57,096 nt of DNA from positions 1 through 57,096 of the forward strand of contig JARKPK010000035.1 of the NCBI GenBank assembly GCA_029975295.1. The letters run 5' to 3'. Position numbers and translations under genes: made by a program. Origin of the DNA: Thermoguttaceae bacterium. GTDB lineage: Bacteria > Planctomycetota > Planctomycetia > Pirellulales > Thermoguttaceae. This document shows positions 18,103 through 35,512 of this stretch, one piece after another (within the stretch, counting starts at the first letter, position 1; every line of letters begins with the position of its first letter). Below the pieces are notes generated by a model. That model did not search any database. It was not told the DNA's origin and saw nothing but the letters and a program-made list of their open reading frames with translations.

Positions 18103-21100
18103 TTAGAAGAACCCACCGCCGCCACCACCAAACCCACCGCCGCCACCGCCGCCGCCGAAGTCGGTGAACCCCGAGCCGCCCGTGCCGCCGCGGCCTTGCG
18201 TGTTGTCGCCCGTAGCCATGTTGAAGATGTTCACTTCACGAATGGCCGAGAAGAACGGCACGCAAGTGATCCGCACGTAGCGGCGATCGGCCGAGATCAC
18301 GGCCGAGGCGCCCAAGTTCGTGCCTTCCGGAATCCAGATGATCACTGGCTGGTAGCCCACCGCCCCTTGATTGAAAAACGGGAAGGGCACCATCGTGTTG
18401 CCCTCGCCGTTGTTCGAGCCGGTCATCGTGCCGCGCGATTGGGCCAGGGCGGCCATCGCCCGCGGATCGACCGAGGCGGCCAACTGCTGCCCGAGAACCT
18501 GATGATTCACCGCGGCTTGCGTGGCCACGGCCTGAGCCATCGCCACTTGCTCCAAGGCCTCTTTGCGGCGGCCGTCTTTCAAATCGAAGACGACAACCGC
18601 CTCGTCATTCTCCAGCGCGACGGGCTTCTGCACGCGCCGCGCCTCGGGGCTGCGGAAATGCGTGATCACTTCCACGTTCACCTTGCCGGCGGTGGGCTTG
18701 CCCCACACGCGCCGCACCAACACTCGGTACGTACCGGAAAAGCCTTGCGGGCAGACGTAGATTTCGCTTCGGCCCTCCGGGGCGTTGTCGCCCAGTTGAA
18801 CGGCGCTGTCGCCCAAGAGCAACCCGCCGCCCAAACTGCGCGGGTTGCGCGGGGTGGCCACCGAACCGGTCGGATCCTCGACAATCACGTCCAGGTCCGC
18901 CTCGCCGCTCCACGTGACGCGCACAACCGCGTCGCGGCGAATCGCCTCGTTCAGCGCCTGTTCGTAGGCAGCCGCCTCGGCCGGATTCTTCGCCTTTAAT
19001 GTATCCAATGCCGCCTTCGCCGAAAGCACCCCCTCCTTGAAGATGGCCGCCTGATCAGCAGGCCATGCCTGATTGAGAATGCCCACCGTGGCCCATTGCA
19101 CAGCCTTGAGATCTCCCAGCCGCTTGGCGGTGCGAAGCCCGTACACGTACGGCTCGGGAAGCGTCGGCAACACTTTGGCGACATCCTGATAGATCTTCAA
19201 TGCCCGGGCGTCCATTCCCAGTTGATTCAAATGCAGAGCAATCATCATCAAATCGAACGGCGACTCGGCCAAATCCACCGCCGAAAGCACAGCCCGCTCG
19301 ATCTCTTCCTGCGGGCGTTCGGCCGCTTGCATGGCCAAGACGAGCGCCTCGTACATCCACGTTTGCATCTGATTGTGCCGCAGAGCGGCCTCGATGGCGG
19401 CAATCACTTGCTCGTACTTCCGCGATTGCATCAGGCTCCGCACCGCGGCCCGCACCGCCGCTTCGCTCGGCTCGTGCGCTGCGAAATACTTGTCCCACGC
19501 CTCGGCGGGCGATGTCCCGGCGGGAACCTCCAACTCAATCTTCTCCGCCTTTGCGCGCTGGGTGCTCGCTGCCGCCGAATTCACGGTCGCGGGCACGGCC
19601 GCCCCGGCCGGAGTGGCCGGAGCGACGATCGAAAGGTCGTCCTCTACGGCAAAGGCCTGAAATCCTCCCGGCGGCACGCGGGGCAGGATGCCCGGCGGAA
19701 CATTGAAGAAGCCGCCGCCGCCCATGCCGCGGCCCATGCCGCCCATGCCGCCCATGCCCATGCCGCCCATGCCGCCGCCCATGCCCATGCCCAGGCCGCC
19801 GCCGCCCATGCCGCCCATGCCCATCGAGCCCAGGCCGCCGCCGCCCATGCCGCCGAACATGCCGCTCATGTCCAACTGGCGAATCGGCAACACCAGGTCG
19901 GCCACGGGATAGACTTTAGTCACCAAACGGGCATCGGCTTCTTCCGGGGTGGTGATCAGCAGCACTTCATCTTGAATGATGTACGTCAACTGCAATTCAC
20001 GAAGCATCAGCCGCAAGGCGGACTTCAACGAAATGCCGCGCAGCGTCTTCGACACCGGCGTATCGGTGCCGATATTCACGTCGCCCAGCGCCTTCTTGTC
20101 CAACTGGATTTCGATCTTGTGATAGTCGCGCAGGTAATCCACCACGTCGGACAACGGCGTTTCGACGAACTCGATCTGCGTCGGCGAGCGAAGCGCTTCC
20201 TCGATCCGCTTTTCCGCCGGGTTCCGCTTCTGCAAATCCATCGAGCTGTACTTCTCCTTGCGGCGGGCGGTCAGGTCGCGCCACACCTCCGCGGCCGGGT
20301 AAACCATCGGCGGTTCGTCCGGCACGGGCACGTGCGACCGTTCCACTTCCATCAAACTGGCCAGAACGCCGCGTTGCCGCGCTTCGCGCAGCCGCATCGC
20401 TTCCGCATAAGCGCCCAAGGCGCGCGAAGTGAGCGTGGCCGCCAGCAGCGACGGTTCCTCCGGCGCCATCGACTGAGCCACCATGGCCGTGTATTCTTCC
20501 GCTTCCAGGTAGCGGCCCTCGTCCATCAACGAATTGAACCGCTCCATCAACTGTTGAATCTTGCGTTCTTTCTGCGTCAATTGCTGGTTGAGCAATTGCA
20601 TTTCCTTCGCCTTGGCCAGGCGCTCGTCGCGTTGCTGCCGGAGAATCTCGTTCGTGTCCGCCCGGCGATTCGCTTCGCGCAGCGTCGTTTCCACCAAATC
20701 GACCAACTGGCTGCGAACCTCGGGGTTCAGATCGGCTGACTGGCGGATTCGCTCCAACAGCAGCTTCAGCTCTTGAATGACGCCCTGCGGATCGGAGGCC
20801 ATATTGCCCCGCGCCCGATTGACCGTCGTCTGAACGTCGGTCTTCATCACTTGCGTCAACACGCGGTTCTCTTCCAAGACGGACTGAGCGAACTGGCCGT
20901 CTTGCGGGGCGATGATCGTCAGATCGGCAGCCCCCTGGGCCGCAGGCTGGACGGGCACCACCTGCCCAGCCGCCGGCACGCCGCCCGCCCGTCGGGCCGC
21001 GATTTGCTGCTTCAACTCGGCGGCACGTTGCGCGGTGGGATCCGAAGCCAACACGCCCGTCAAAATCCGCTCCGCTCCGTCCAAATCGCCGCGGCTGATG

Positions 21101-30954: not shown

Positions 30955-31845
30955 TCAGCGGGCGACCGGTCCGCCGCGACGTAGGCGCAACCGCCGATAG
31001 GCGGCTCCCACCGCGGCTGCCGCGCCGTAGGCGGCCACGGCCAAGAGCACAACAGTCGGACCGGCGCGGGTTTCGAAGTGGTAGCTGGCCAACACGCCGC
31101 CAGTGACCAAAGCGGCGCAGAGCACCGCGGCCAACAACATCATCTGCCAAAGATGCCGGGCGACGCGCCCCGCCAGCGCCGCCGGCAGAGTCGTCAGCGC
31201 TACGACCAGAAGAATGCCCACCACGCGAACCAACAAGACAATCGTCAGGGCGGTCAGGCACAGCAGGAGCAAGAAGTAAACCTTCGACGGAATCCCTCGC
31301 AAGGCCGCGAACTCTTCGTCGAAACAAACGGCAGCCAACTTGTTGTAGAAGACAGCGGCCGCGACCAGCACGACCAAATCGAGAATCGCCACCAGCCGCA
31401 AATCGTCGCGGGTGATCAACAAGATGTCGCCGAACAAGTAGCTCAGCGGTTCGATGGCCGGTTCACCCGGCGGCGGATGGGCACGTTCGAGGAACAACAA
31501 ACCCAGGGCCACTCCACCCACCCAAACCAGGCTGATCACCGTATCTTCCCGCTCTTGTGCGAAAAAACTGATCAACCCGATGCAAAGGGCCGCCGTCAGC
31601 GCGGCAACCCACGCTCCCCACAAGGGATGCAGCCACGAACAACCGTAGTTGTAGCGGAGCAACACGGCCGCCCCGATGCCGCCGAGCACGCAATGCGCCA
31701 TCGCATCGGCCATGTAGGTGATGCGGCGAGCAACGACGAATGTGCCCAACACGCCGAACGCTGCGCTGGCCAGCAACCCGATGAACAGCGCATTGCGCAA
31801 AAAGGGAAACGCCGGATCGGTCAGCGCTTCGATCAATTCACTCAT
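30955..31845 (-). CDS. znuB: Zinc/manganese-type ABC transporter permease (ZnuB family)
   Basis: 296 residues with about eight or nine hydrophobic helices (for example NALFIGLLASAAFGVLGTF and TIVLLVRVVGILLVVALTTL). The ABC-3 family signatures are present: RRITYMADAMAHCVLGGIG near residue 45, and a cytoplasmic loop (FAALRGIPSKVYF) expected to contact the ATPase. The start at 31845 overlaps the end of the ATPase gene by eight bases, so the two are co-translated. It forms the membrane channel for zinc (or Mn/Fe) import, with ZnuC powering it and ZnuA delivering the ion. The metal is inferred from the His-rich ZnuA. It is the last confident gene of the operon. Confidence 0.9.
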   Translation of the reverse strand: MSELIEALTDPAFPFLRNALFIGLLASAAFGVLGTFVVARRITYMADAMAHCVLGGIGAAVLLRYNYGCSWLHPLWGAWVAALTAALCIGLISFFAQEREDTVISLVWVGGVALGLLFLERAHPPPGEPAIEPLSYLFGDILLITRDDLRLVAILDLVVLVAAAVFYNKLAAVCFDEEFAALRGIPSKVYFLLLLCLTALTIVLLVRVVGILLVVALTTLPAALAGRVARHLWQMMLLAAVLCAALVTGGVLASYHFETRAGPTVVLLAVAAYGAAAAVGAAYRRLRLRRGGPVAR

Positions 31846-32671
31846 GCCGGCATCCCTCGTGCGAAACTGCTCGGCAATGATCGACCACGCGCATCGACGA
31901 ACCGTACATCGCCTGAACCGCCTCGTCGTCGAGCGGACCCGAATGATGCTCGACCACGCGGCGATTCACGCAAATGACCCGCTCGGCCAGATTCGACACA
32001 AACCCCAAATCGTGCGAAACCACAACAACGGCCATCCGGTCGTTCAACGCCCGAAGCGTCGCGAACAATTGCGATTCCATCATGGAATCCACGTTGGCCG
32101 TCGGCTCGTCGAGCACGAGCAACTCCGGCTCACAGCAGAGCGCACGGGCAATCAACACCCGCTGCCGCTGCCCGCCCGAAAGCGAAGCAAACGGCTCGTC
32201 GCTTTGGTCGATCATTCCAACGGCCGCCAGCGCGTCGCGGGCCTTCTTGCGATCGTCTCGACTGTACCACCCCAAACGGCTCCGCCAGCCGCGACGCCCC
32301 AAACGGCCCATCAACGCCACCTCCATAGCCGAAATCGGGAACAGAGGATCGAAGCGAACGTGCTGCGGCATGTAGCCAATCGCCCGCGACGCCGCCCGGG
32401 CCGGACCGCCCATGACCCGAACCTGCCCACGTTGCGGTTGCAACAGTCCAAGCAGCAGGCGGATCAGCGTCGTCTTGCCGCCGCCGTTCGGGCCGATCAC
32501 GCAAACCAGTTGCCGCGGCATGATCCGCAAGCAAACGTCTTCGAGCACCGGCCGCTCACCGTAGCCGAACCACACCCGATCAAACTCGACCAACGGCCGC
32601 CCTTCGCTCGCGCCCGAGGCGTTCGGCACGGAAAAAGAATCTGGCGTGTGGGATGGGCTCGACTCGGACAT
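31838..32671 (-). CDS. znuC: Zinc ABC transporter ATP-binding protein (ZnuC family)
   Basis: 277 residues from the ATG at 32671. Walker A GPNGGGKTT, Q-loop YMPQHVRFD, signature LSGGQRQR, Walker B LLVLDEP and switch His in VVVSHDLGF are all present and in order. MPQ(H)-type Q-loops with RFD are typical of the Mn/Zn/Fe importer ATPases. The C-terminal 50 residues hold His and Cys (RRVVEHHSG, VDHCRAVSHEGCRHE), a common feature of metal-importer ATPases that may bind the cargo ion. It starts 16 bases after the ZnuA stop and overlaps the permease gene, so it is the central gene of a tight operon. It acts at the inner face of the membrane. Confidence 0.92.
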   Translation of the reverse strand: MSESSPSHTPDSFSVPNASGASEGRPLVEFDRVWFGYGERPVLEDVCLRIMPRQLVCVIGPNGGGKTTLIRLLLGLLQPQRGQVRVMGGPARAASRAIGYMPQHVRFDPLFPISAMEVALMGRLGRRGWRSRLGWYSRDDRKKARDALAAVGMIDQSDEPFASLSGGQRQRVLIARALCCEPELLVLDEPTANVDSMMESQLFATLRALNDRMAVVVVSHDLGFVSNLAERVICVNRRVVEHHSGPLDDEAVQAMYGSSMRVVDHCRAVSHEGCRHE

Positions 32672-32687
32672 CAACGGCCTCCGGCAG

Positions 32688-33875
32688 CTAACGATCGGTT
32701 TGATGCCGGCAAATCTGCTCGGCAGCCTCGGCCAGGTTTTTCACCACGTCGGGTGCCATGGGATCGAACACAACCAACTTCGCTCCGATAGCCTGGGCCA
32801 CAGCCGCGGCCGCCCTCTGGTCGCCACTGGGCTCGACAAACACCGCCCGAACCCGCTCGGCCTGCGCCTGCTGAATCAGCTTTCGCAAGTGTTTGGCCGA
32901 AGGAGCCTTTCCATCGCTTTCCACGGCGATCTGACGAAGCCCATACGCTTTGCACAAATAGCCCAACGATGGGTGATAAACATAGATGCTTTGCCCGGCC
33001 AATGGGCGAAGCTGCTCGTCAAGCCGTTGGGTCAATTCGGCAATCCGCCCCTGAAGCGCCTGCTGATTGCGGCGGAATTGACTGGCGCCCGCCGGGTCGG
33101 CCGCCGCTAACGCCGCGGCGATGTTTTCCACCAACCGGGGCAACACGGATGGATCGAGCCAAACGTGGGGATCGGCCGCCTGCCCGCCGTGATGATCTTC
33201 GCGGCAGTTCGGATCTCCGCAGGAATGCCCATGCTCGGCGTCTGCCGAACGCCCCGCGGCCGCGTTGTGGCCAGGGTGGTTAGCGGCAGGCAACTTCGAA
33301 GAATCGGAGGACTGGGCATGAGCAGCCGGCTTCGGCTTGCCCGCGTTCGATGACGGATTGCTCGATGCTGCTTCATGATCGTGGGAGCAGCCGTGCGGGC
33401 ACGACTCGCCCGATGCCTGCAACGCGCCAGCGCTGGGCGACCCTCGGTCCCCCGAAGCTGCGGCAGCCTCCTTGTCGGCGGGCGTCGCGACGCCGCTCGC
33501 CACAGATGACACGGATGAAATATCGACACAACGCACCTTCGAGCCGGTTTGGCGCAACCGCTCGGCTAGTTGCTGCTCGAAGGGCATGTTAATCGTCAAC
33601 AGCAAGTCGGCTTTCGCCAACGCCTGTGCCTGCTTGGGTGAAAGCGAAAGCTGATGGGCACACACCCCGGACGCCGCCAGCACCTCAGCCTGCACCCGAT
33701 CGCCCCCCACCTGCTCGACCAAGCCGGCCACGGGAGCAATTCCCACGATTACGCGGAGCGGCCCGCGATCGGCGCGGTCGGCCGCCGACGCTGCCGTCGC
33801 CAACACACCCCACGAGATCGCGAAAATCGATCCCGCCGCGACCAGCGCAAACGCCCGCCGAGTATTTCCGTTCAT
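32688..33875 (-). CDS. znuA: Zinc ABC transporter solute-binding protein (ZnuA family)
   Basis: 395 residues from the ATG at 33875, chosen because it begins a clear signal peptide (RRAFALVAAGSIFAISWGVL...AASA). Cluster A-I metal-binding family features follow: GGDRVQAEVLAASGVCAHQLSLSPKQ, LLLTINMPFEQQLAERL, DPHVWLDPSVLPRLVENIA, YVYHPSLGYLCKAYGL and FVEPSGDQRAAAAVAQAIGAKL. Between about residues 160 and 240 is a long His/Cys-rich insertion (CPHGCSHDHEAA, HPGHN, AEHGHSCGDPNCREDHH), the charged loop typical of zinc-binding ZnuA proteins. Here it also carries several Cys, which is less usual. It captures zinc outside the membrane and hands it to ZnuB. It lies 66 bases after the stop of the ribbon-helix-helix regulator gene on the same strand. 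Confidence 0.92.
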   Translation of the reverse strand: MNGNTRRAFALVAAGSIFAISWGVLATAASAADRADRGPLRVIVGIAPVAGLVEQVGGDRVQAEVLAASGVCAHQLSLSPKQAQALAKADLLLTINMPFEQQLAERLRQTGSKVRCVDISSVSSVASGVATPADKEAAAASGDRGSPSAGALQASGESCPHGCSHDHEAASSNPSSNAGKPKPAAHAQSSDSSKLPAANHPGHNAAAGRSADAEHGHSCGDPNCREDHHGGQAADPHVWLDPSVLPRLVENIAAALAAADPAGASQFRRNQQALQGRIAELTQRLDEQLRPLAGQSIYVYHPSLGYLCKAYGLRQIAVESDGKAPSAKHLRKLIQQAQAERVRAVFVEPSGDQRAAAAVAQAIGAKLVVFDPMAPDVVKNLAEAAEQICRHQTDR

Positions 33876-33941
33876 TACACTGTTCCTGATTGCCAAAGCT
33901 CGATTTCCGATTTCTCCAAACGCCGGCCAACGCATCAGCAA

Positions 33942-34322
33942 TTACCCCTGGTCCCGTGATTCCACCTGCGTCTTGTGTTCGGGTTGTCTGGCAGCGGGTC
34001 GAAGAGTTTCCGACGAATCTGCCCCCGCACCAGCCGAAAGACCGGACTCGCCGCCGGCAGCCCCTCTGCGACGGCAAACAAGGTGAACGGCATGACAATC
34101 GCCGCACTCCTCGATTTGGTGATCTTGGGCAAACCGATCCCAATGCTTTCGCTGATCGGTGGAAAGAATGCCGGAGCCCTTGCAGAGGGGACAAACGTTG
34201 TCCATGGCCGCGAGGATAGCCGAGCGAATGAACTCGGACCGATTCTCCACACCCCGCAACGCTTGGCGCAGGGCCGCATCGGCCTTGAAGGTCATCACGA
34301 TCTGTTTGCGAGGTCGGGCCAT
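33942..34322 (-). CDS. Ribbon-helix-helix protein with two CXXC knuckles, candidate metalloregulator of znu
   Basis: 126 residues from the ATG at 34322. The N-terminus MARPRKQIVMTFKADAALRQ and the following GVENRSEFIRSAILAAMDN form a ribbon-helix-helix (CopG/MetJ/NikR-type) DNA-binding unit: a beta strand, then two helices with the family RSEFIR pattern. Directly after come CPLCKGSG and, about 25 residues later, ECGDCHAVHLVC, a pair of CXXC knuckles with His that should bind one zinc ion. It is the first gene of a unit with znuA, znuC and znuB, so a metal-responsive repressor of that operon is a sound inference. The NikR nickel domain is absent. The last about 40 residues (after HLVC) are Gly/Ala/Ser-rich and look like run-on sequence, possibly from a lost stop or a frameshift. 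Confidence 0.7.
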   Translation of the reverse strand: MARPRKQIVMTFKADAALRQALRGVENRSEFIRSAILAAMDNVCPLCKGSGILSTDQRKHWDRFAQDHQIEECGDCHAVHLVCRRRGAAGGESGLSAGAGADSSETLRPAARQPEHKTQVESRDQG

Positions 34323-34405
34323 TGAGGACAAAAGGCATTGGCGAGCACAAACATCGCCCCGTTCGATACGGACAACCCGAGTTGCCACCGCACGGGCCTT
34401 ATGGG

Positions 34406-34418
34406 AATACATTGTATT
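34406..34418. promoter_or_regulatory. Palindromic operator candidate AATACATTGTATT
   Basis: A perfect 6-1-6 palindrome (AATACA-T-TGTATT), extended by GG/CC at the outer edges with one mismatch per side (34403-34421). It overlaps the likely -10 hexamer of the leftward regulator-znuACB operon, the position expected for a repressor site. It is not a classical Fur or Zur box. The ribbon-helix-helix protein is the obvious candidate ligand (inference). Confidence 0.55.
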
Positions 34419-34438
34419 ACCGACGGCCGAGACGGCAA
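34411..34438 (-). promoter_or_regulatory. Candidate promoter of the regulator-znuACB operon
   Basis: On the minus strand, TTGCCG (34438-34433), a 16-base spacer and TACAAT (34416-34411). The -10 matches the consensus at five of six positions and sits inside the palindrome. It is about 90 bases upstream of the regulator start. Confidence 0.4.
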
Positions 34439-34852
34439 GGGGCGGTGCGACCAATCGCTGCTTATCGCCGAACTTCCGCCCTGGCGTTCCGCTCTTTCCT
34501 GGCCCTTGCCCTTGTTCTCATGCCTTGCGGTGGCCAGCGCCGCAGCAACCGAGGCCAGGGCAACGCAATGGCAAACGTCTGGGGGAGAGGCTTACTCAAC
34601 GTGTAAGAGCATCCGCCGCTAGTCCTTCTGAGCGGAACTCCGCCGGCCGCTGAAAAGGCAACAAAACCGCTACGGACGGTATCTGCGTCACGTCCGGACT
34701 TGGGCGAATGCGTACTTTGGAAGAAATACGTCGAGCAGTAAAGAACGTCGGGCGACCGGGACGATAGCAAACGCTAGATCGTTCGCAAAGTCCCTATGTT
34801 CGCCAGGGTGCGCGAGTCCCGTAAACGCTTTTTTCAAACAGGAGTTCCTCCC

Positions 34853-35512
34853 ATGAAACGTAGTGTTTTGATCTCGGCGTTGGCCGTGGCGGCGGTCGTC
34901 GTGCTGGCCAATGCGTCCAGCGCGTGGGCGCTGCATCGTTCCCGGACCTGTTGTCCGGCCACTTGTGCTCCGGCCGCCTGCGAAGCCCCCAAGGCGTGCG
35001 AAGCGCCCAAGGCTTGCGAACCGGCGTGCGCTCCGGCCTGCGAACCGGCCACCTGCTGCAAAGTGAAGTGCCGCAAGGTCCGCACCTGCCGTCCGAAGTC
35101 CTGCGCTCCGGCCACCTGCGCCCCGGCCGCTTGCGAAGCCCCCAAGGCTTGCGAAGCGCCCAAGGCCTGCGCCCCGGCGTGCGAACCGGCCACCTGCTGC
35201 CCGAAGCCCTGCAAGGTGAAGTGCCGCAAGGTCCGCACCTGCCGTCCGAAGACCTGCTGCGCTCCGGCCGCCTGCGAAGCCCCCAAGGCCTGCGAACCGG
35301 CCACTTGCTGCCCGAAGCCCTGCAAAGTGAAGTGCTGCAAGGTGAAGTGCTGCAAGCCGAAGTGCTGCAAAGAGAAGTGCTGCAAGCCGAAGTGCTGCAA
35401 GGTGAAGTGCTGCAAAGAGAAGTGCCGCAAGGTTCGCACCTGCCGTCCGGCCACCTGCGCCCCGGCCGCCTGCGAAGCGCCCAAGGCCTGCGCCCCGGCG
35501 TGCTGCAACTAG
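34853..35512 (+). CDS. Secreted cysteine-saturated repeat protein
   Basis: 219 residues from the ATG at 34853, with AGGAG eight bases upstream. A standard signal peptide (MKRSVLISALAVAAVVVLAN then ASSAWA) precedes a mature chain of about 193 residues containing 49 Cys, roughly one in four. The rest is almost only Pro, Ala, Lys, Glu, Thr, Arg and Val. Two kinds of module alternate: neutral CAPAACEAPKAC / CEPATC blocks and basic CKVKCRKVRTCRPK blocks. Six near-identical CCKxK pentapeptides occur in a row. The pattern looks metallothionein-like or like a disulfide-linked coat. With export, extracellular metal binding or a cross-linked surface material are both possible. It is divergent from the zinc regulator-transporter operon and followed by a strong terminator. 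I know no named family for it. Confidence 0.85.
   Translation: MKRSVLISALAVAAVVVLANASSAWALHRSRTCCPATCAPAACEAPKACEAPKACEPACAPACEPATCCKVKCRKVRTCRPKSCAPATCAPAACEAPKACEAPKACAPACEPATCCPKPCKVKCRKVRTCRPKTCCAPAACEAPKACEPATCCPKPCKVKCCKVKCCKPKCCKEKCCKPKCCKVKCCKEKCRKVRTCRPATCAPAACEAPKACAPACCN
35333..35422 (+). repeat. Six tandem 15-bp repeats inside the Cys-rich gene
   Basis: The unit is TGCTGCAAnnnGAAG, where nnn cycles GGT, GCC, AGA, GCC, GGT, AGA (one GCC/GGT/AGA position per 15 bases). Each unit encodes Cys-Cys-Lys-x-Lys. Such in-frame repeats can expand or contract by slippage without breaking the frame. Confidence 0.8.

Follow-up and report, generated by a model that had tools for sequence, protein, structure and literature searches.

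The chlamydial proteins OmcA and OmcB, which belong to the same superphylum as the organism considered here, are cysteine-rich outer-membrane proteins that are disulfide linked within the envelope. Planctomycetes have cysteine-rich YTV proteins, known from wall preparations (PMC8567305), one of which falls in the planctomycete-restricted part of the Planctopirus limnophila essential genome (PMC10632474). Among extracellular animal proteins, the mammalian high-sulfur keratin-associated proteins are about one-quarter cysteine and contain Pro-containing pentapeptides in variable repeat number; caprine KAP1-2, with CEPTC pentapeptides, contains 21.7 to 23.1% Cys (PMC8143586). The Cys-rich eggshell membrane protein CREMP is modular, has regularly spaced cysteines, and contributes to a disulfide-rich extracellular fibre, with one CREMP fragment described as well folded (PMC3068167).

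The subject here is a gene in a 57,096-nucleotide stretch of DNA (the window), which is contig C90 of a Thermoguttaceae genome with an estimated completeness of 99.99%. The protein resembles keratin-associated proteins in its cysteine share and pentapeptides, but it is bacterial, has a signal peptide and basic modules, and has no known keratin partner, and we take the resemblance to reflect convergence and not descent. Like the YTV wall proteins (PF07639), it is Cys-rich, exported, and planctomycete, but it belongs to a separate family, with no PF07639 match among 30 scanned members, and both families coexist in the window's taxonomic family. It shares a very high cysteine content and few aromatic residues with metallothioneins, from which it differs in its signal peptide, its greater length, its depletion in CxC and CxxC, and the lack of a Pfam match to them. 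CREMP, as described, is set apart by its different Cys spacing and its animal origin. Literature searches, with most subscription papers out of reach, returned no paper on this protein family, and the listings obtained for bacterial keratin-associated-like proteins and for SdpB/HTTM with cysteine-rich proteins held nothing on it.

On re-reading the open reading frame and its translation, we found that 34853-35512 on the forward strand codes for 219 amino acids, with coordinates and composition matching the earlier note, which had described an exported protein, one-quarter cysteine, built from alternating neutral and basic modules with six CCKxK units in a row. The Sec-type start (MKRSVLISALAVAAVVVLANASSAWA) predicts export, and cleavage after SSAWA would leave a 193-residue mature part with 49 Cys (25%); the module alternation and the CCKxK run could both be located on the sequence (Table 1). 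The same note had named, among signs that the frame is not translated, a lack of selection to keep it, and on selection the data point the other way. The mature part yields 149 identical hexapeptide pairs (overlapping segments, hence not independent), and all 169 nucleotide differences within them fall at the third codon position and none at position 1 or 2. The non-synonymous/synonymous ratio is below 1 in all 16 ortholog pairs compared (range, 0.04 to 0.66; window versus closest ortholog, 0.56), the pairs being hand-picked and the ratios uncorrected proportions from pairwise alignments of repeats. The frame is therefore under selection and encodes a real protein. A leader that is shared across genera has its 3′ end exactly at the ATG at 34853, which makes an in-frame ATG at 34796 an unlikely start. 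In our judgement, the long open frames on the opposite strand are by-products of the repeats and of codon usage.

Table 1. Features of the cysteine-rich gene and its 5′ region (window coordinates)
Feature	Position	Strand	Basis
Conserved type II 5′ region, promoter-like elements plus leader, up to the ATG (putative function)	34728..34852	+	15-ortholog alignment; model R2
Window form GGACGATA of conserved CG[AT]CGATA; possible -10 element of an alternative sigma factor (putative role)	34759..34766	+	Ortholog alignments
Shine-Dalgarno GGAG	34841..34844	+	Sequence; invariant in 17 aligned leaders
Type II Cys-rich exported protein CDS	34853..35512	+	ORF, repeat codons, ortholog substitution ratios
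Sec-type signal peptide, residues 1-26, AxA site SSAWA (predicted)	34853..34930	+	Read from sequence
Neutral Cys-Pro-Ala module 1	34949..35053	+	Sequence
Basic module CKVKCRKVRTCRPK, copy 1	35057..35098	+	Sequence
Neutral Cys-Pro-Ala module 2	35102..35194	+	Sequence
Basic module CKVKCRKVRTCRPK, copy 2	35210..35251	+	Sequence
Neutral Cys-Pro-Ala module 3	35255..35305	+	Sequence
Six consecutive CCKxK units	35333..35422	+	Sequence
Basic module copy 3, close variant CKEKCRKVRTCRP, overlapping the last CCKxK unit	35411..35449	+	Sequence

The window protein thus carries its basic module twice exactly and once as a close variant. Charge is blockier than in shuffled sequences in 33 of 56 family proteins (p 0.05), including the window protein (p 0.03). 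AlphaFold2 was uninformative (mean pLDDT, 35.8, from four sequences), and the window protein had no match at E 1 in a sequence search of the PDB or among NCBIfam models. Elsewhere in the window, positions 19711-19870 hold another low-complexity stretch, an array of GCCGCCCAT-type tandem units.

The earlier note had proposed a profile search in other planctomycetes. By protein similarity at E 0.001, relatives were found in 27 of 60 genomes, that is, in 27 of 37 from the same family (the window's own included) and in none of 23 from other families. An order-wide protein search gave 23 of 196 genomes, of which 21 belong to the 36 family genomes and the other 2, with marginal matches, to the 160 from elsewhere in the order, and a phylum-wide search gave 2 of 294, both in the window's family. 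A scrambled control that kept the signal peptide found none of 61 family genomes, compared with the 27 of 60 for the real protein; the scramble was hand-typed, so that its composition is close but not identical (58 versus 49 Cys), and its genome set differs from that of the real query.

The DNA upstream splits most relatives into two groups, each with its own conserved 5′ region; the window gene is type II, and a few related ORFs (L010, L066, L069, L075, and L088) have neither leader. We searched models of both 5′ regions in 61 family genomes, using filters that can lose weak matches. The type II model, R2, gave 33 hits in 31 genomes, the window included, and the type I model gave 40 hits in 36 genomes, so each type is usually present in one copy per genome. 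Of the 61 genomes, 29 have both types, 2 have only type II, 7 have only type I, and 23 have neither (Fisher p 1.2e-8, without correction for relatedness); both genes thus appear dispensable in those 23 genomes where neither was found. Loci were recovered for 60 of these hits (L094-L153), and a Cys-rich exported ORF follows the leader in 59 of the 60 (the exception is L123), as established by script for 56 (one just 57 residues long because the contig ends) and by reading for 3. Pirellulales thus have two orthologous genes, and each is preceded by a conserved leader of its own.

The window's genome holds two further Cys-rich exported ORFs, on contigs C146 and C128. Contig C146 carries another such ORF besides (L009:5348-6154, reverse strand), which is convergent with the type I gene there, contains CxC motifs (CKCNPCRCGEKC), and has a weak match to Metallothio_PEC (E 0.001, below cut-off). 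The C128 ORF (L010:4138-4962, forward strand), the third in this genome, which lacks a type I or II leader, shares the CCRPTPVRDLFAGL motif with type II relatives outside the family, and the repeated CCRPTP[VI]RD motif of those outside members is also found in it.

The leaders reach well past the window's family. In the order-wide set, the type I model matched 57 of 196 genomes, 41 of them outside the family and distributed over 15 other families (weakest E values, 0.003 to 0.007). We read 20 type I loci from 20 of these 41 genomes, representing 11 families, and in all 20 the downstream gene is an exported Cys-rich ORF of 118 to 172 residues whose ATG stands at the leader end. Their signal peptides follow the pattern MNR...GIA/GVA...G.AL, and their mature parts are mostly rich in Gly, His, and Cys; CHGC and CHGRC motifs occur in many of them, and one genus outside the family has two genomes in which CCAPEP units fill the mature part. 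In a synteny set of 20 longer outside loci (17 genomes shared with the first set), all 20 have the same gene upstream in the same orientation, with two weak matches (E 6e-6 and 1e-4), and this gene is also upstream in 21 of 22 type I loci of the window's family. On the same strand downstream, 13 of 20 outside loci have a membrane-anchored protein and 15 of 20 have an HTTM/SdpB-like protein, counts that include the loci supplying the queries and some short contigs. At L184:4441-10669 (reverse strand) and corresponding loci, the same-strand row reads P-loop ATPase, small exported or lipoprotein-like protein, type I protein, membrane-anchored protein, HTTM/SdpB-like protein, and TIM-barrel protein.

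Type II shows a smaller extension. A sequence-only model built with three outside members had matches at E 0.05 in 26 of 196 genomes, including 10 that do not belong to the family; a Cys-rich exported ORF follows the hit in 8 of these 10 genomes (9 hits), five of them new, and is absent from the other 2 and from a second weak hit in one family genome. Among eight marginal R2 hits outside the family, three precede a Cys-rich exported ORF and five do not. Leader and synteny together trace both genes past the limits of the window's family, into genomes that protein similarity does not reach. The restriction to one family that the protein searches had suggested is overturned by this evidence and reflects a limit of protein similarity. 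The earlier note's picture of an exported, modular, extremely Cys-rich planctomycete protein is supported; the second gene, the conserved leaders, and the wider distribution lay beyond what the window's letters could show.

Two almost invariant elements of the type I leader, GCCGTC and GACGGC, are able to pair, and a second stem, variable in sequence, is interleaved with this pairing. Within-sequence stem scores sum to 495 over 22 leaders, and 20000 permutations among sequences never exceeded 442; the sum for 20 leaders from outside the family is 395 (permutation maximum, 380). These outside leaders were found with a model containing the first stem only, and just 9 of the 20 beat shuffles of their own arms (p 0.05). 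At the Rfam 15 gathering score, no leader match was found in the window, in 12 family loci (one tRNA only), or in 16 outside loci. The alignments indicate that the type I leader is a covarying H-type pseudoknot with no Rfam match, and we regard it as a candidate regulatory RNA, absent from Rfam 15 and usually located before one gene per genome.

The type II 5′ region is also conserved, with mean pairwise identity rising from 0.43 (-190 to -150) through 0.52 to 0.62 (-150 to -20) to 0.77 in the last 20 bases. Its TAA...CG[AT]CGATA layout looks like that of a promoter read by an alternative sigma factor and may act as one. A pseudoknot was also considered for the type II leader and is unsupported: in two tests, 374 of 5000 and 3154 of 5000 permutations did as well as the real leaders, and a scan of paired leader segments gave a best z of 2.7, uncorrected. 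RNAalifold predicted two weak hairpins in the type II leaders.

Neighbouring genes are partly shared among type II loci. Outside the family, 6 of 9 hits have an Hpt gene next to them and 4 of 9 have pgk pieces, and both genes occur in 2 of 3 loci for which longer stretches were read; among 15 family loci, some on short contigs, the neighbours include Hpt (12), pgk (7), and a cysteine-synthase-like gene (PALP; 5). The window's 57 kb contain no Hpt, pgk, or cysteine-synthase-like gene, suggesting that either its copy or its neighbours moved. What the window does have, at 31838-33941 on the reverse strand, are zinc-uptake genes for an ABC ATPase and a ZnuA family protein (E 4e-56), the latter with a His-rich stretch. 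Between these and the Cys-rich gene lies a reverse-strand ORF (33942-34454) with CPLCKGSG and CGDCHAVHLVC pairs and no Pfam match at E 0.01.

We analyzed Cys spacing in 60 family proteins, 30 per type, with duplicates removed and some proteins cut by contig ends. In type I proteins, 65% of Cys spacings equal 5, while in type II proteins spacings of 1, 4, and 5 account for 28%, 22%, and 28%. A cysteine every five residues (CxPxx) is thus the pattern of the window's family, and Cys autocorrelation across 56 proteins is 0.63, 0.51, and 0.42 at lags 5, 10, and 15. CxC (at most 1.7%) and CxxC (2.7 to 5.8%) are depleted relative to shuffled sequences (17% and 13%, respectively), and the window protein has neither among its 48 spacings. 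The Cys count is odd in 33 of the 60 proteins, some of these cut by contig ends, and the number of cysteines is free to vary. Type I orthologs outside the family (n = 20) are different, with 8.5% CxC, 15% CxxC, and mature parts of 17% Cys and 6% His; any argument against metal clusters from spacing is therefore limited to the window's family.

A Pfam scan of 30 members (26 from the family and 4 from outside) at E 0.01 matched Keratin_B2_2 (PF13885) in 17, PMG (PF05287) in 6, and Keratin_B2 (PF01500) in 3, with two unrelated single matches and with neither a YTV domain nor a metallothionein family among the matches. When 10 members were scanned singly, three (L085, L058, and P0003) exceeded the Keratin_B2_2 cut-off and one fell just short, while six, including the window's most similar relatives P0002, P0004, L073, and L093, had no match at E 0.01; the window protein itself scored 16.2 bits, below the cut-off of 27. 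Low-complexity Cys-Pro sequence can match keratin models by composition, and such matches do not show descent.

Four readings of the window protein were weighed, the earlier note having left two of them, a cross-linked coat and a secreted metal trap, side by side. The evidence now favours the coat, on the strength of how the cysteines are spaced, of a Cys count that varies and is often odd, and of the relatives' matches to hair keratin-associated families, and it disfavours the trap. We give about even chances to a disulfide-linked envelope matrix resembling keratin-associated proteins. A chain of Cys-rich short repeats would be exported by Sec; its thiols, oxidised outside the cytoplasm, would form many disulfides, some of them intermolecular; basic blocks may bind the chain to an anionic envelope partner, and neutral blocks may cross-link it to itself and to the type I product, if the two genes cooperate; the outcome would be a resistant layer or appendage, presumably at the envelope. 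Such a matrix fits the regular Cys-rich short repeats, the free Cys number, the basic modules, and export, and the five-residue period, the depletion of CxC and CxxC, the charge blockiness, and the co-occurrence of types I and II add to this. Planctomyces envelopes are described as Pro- and Cys-rich protein that resists SDS and contains disulfides (PMC3035269), which we count in its favour; Isosphaera walls are reported to be without cysteine and proline (PMC3072084), which we count against it. Also to be set against the matrix are the window protein's subthreshold keratin score and the absence of a match in its closest relatives, the Gly/His/Cys-rich composition of outside type I proteins, which are less like keratin-associated proteins, and the presence of YTV wall proteins in 98 of 101 family genomes already, in a family where both genes were not found in 23 of 61.

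Sec-exported thiols would tend to become oxidised, which counts against an exported metal or metalloid trap, in which thiols outside the cytoplasm would remain reduced or capture soft metals and the leaders would respond to the metal. We consider this unlikely, even with 49 Cys in 193 residues and with the His content and CHGC and CHGRC motifs of outside type I proteins in its favour, given the spacing pattern in the window's family and the lack of metallothionein matches. The zinc-uptake operon adjoining the window gene would fit a metal role, but a search for seven of the window's neighbouring genes around 45 other loci turned up just one weak ABC ATPase hit, and we rejected the zinc context as support. 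The genes downstream of outside type I raise a different idea, in which an SdpA/SdpB-like membrane pair would modify or mature the type I precursor, and by extension that of type II, to yield an active secreted peptide. This is suggested by the frequent membrane-anchored and HTTM/SdpB-like proteins and by the match of the L184 protein to TIGR04033 (E 2.3e-5), and we hold it to be improbable: the score of 24.2 bits is far under the cut-off of 178.4, the HTTM/SdpB-like protein has no Pfam match at E 0.05, and no such pair was found near type II with specific queries in short stretches. A search of 61 family genomes for the HTTM/SdpB-like protein at E 1e-5 was negative as well, which suggests that the window's lineage manages without it. 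Least probable, and in our view very unlikely, is a thiol or sulfur store or extracytoplasmic redox buffer, for which the tolerance of great variation in composition and the PALP neighbour at 5 of 15 family type II loci could be cited; that gene is convergent and hence not co-transcribed, and a store would need neither a five-residue Cys register with Pro nor alternating basic modules.

A wider picture, which we put forward tentatively and with more doubt than confidence, is that Pirellulales build a hair-like, two-protein disulfide matrix of the envelope from fast-evolving Cys-rich precursors, each under its own cis-acting leader, and that the type I leader represents a new class of pseudoknotted regulatory RNA found across much of the order. 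The identity of the disulfide-stabilised, Pro- and Cys-rich envelope protein of planctomycetes is an old question for which YTV proteins are known candidates, and the gene pair described here adds a second set. Specialists would not expect a leader RNA and a widely conserved gene pair whose mature part changes so fast. If the matrix reading holds, bacteria and mammals would have reached a similar Cys-Pro repeat solution independently.
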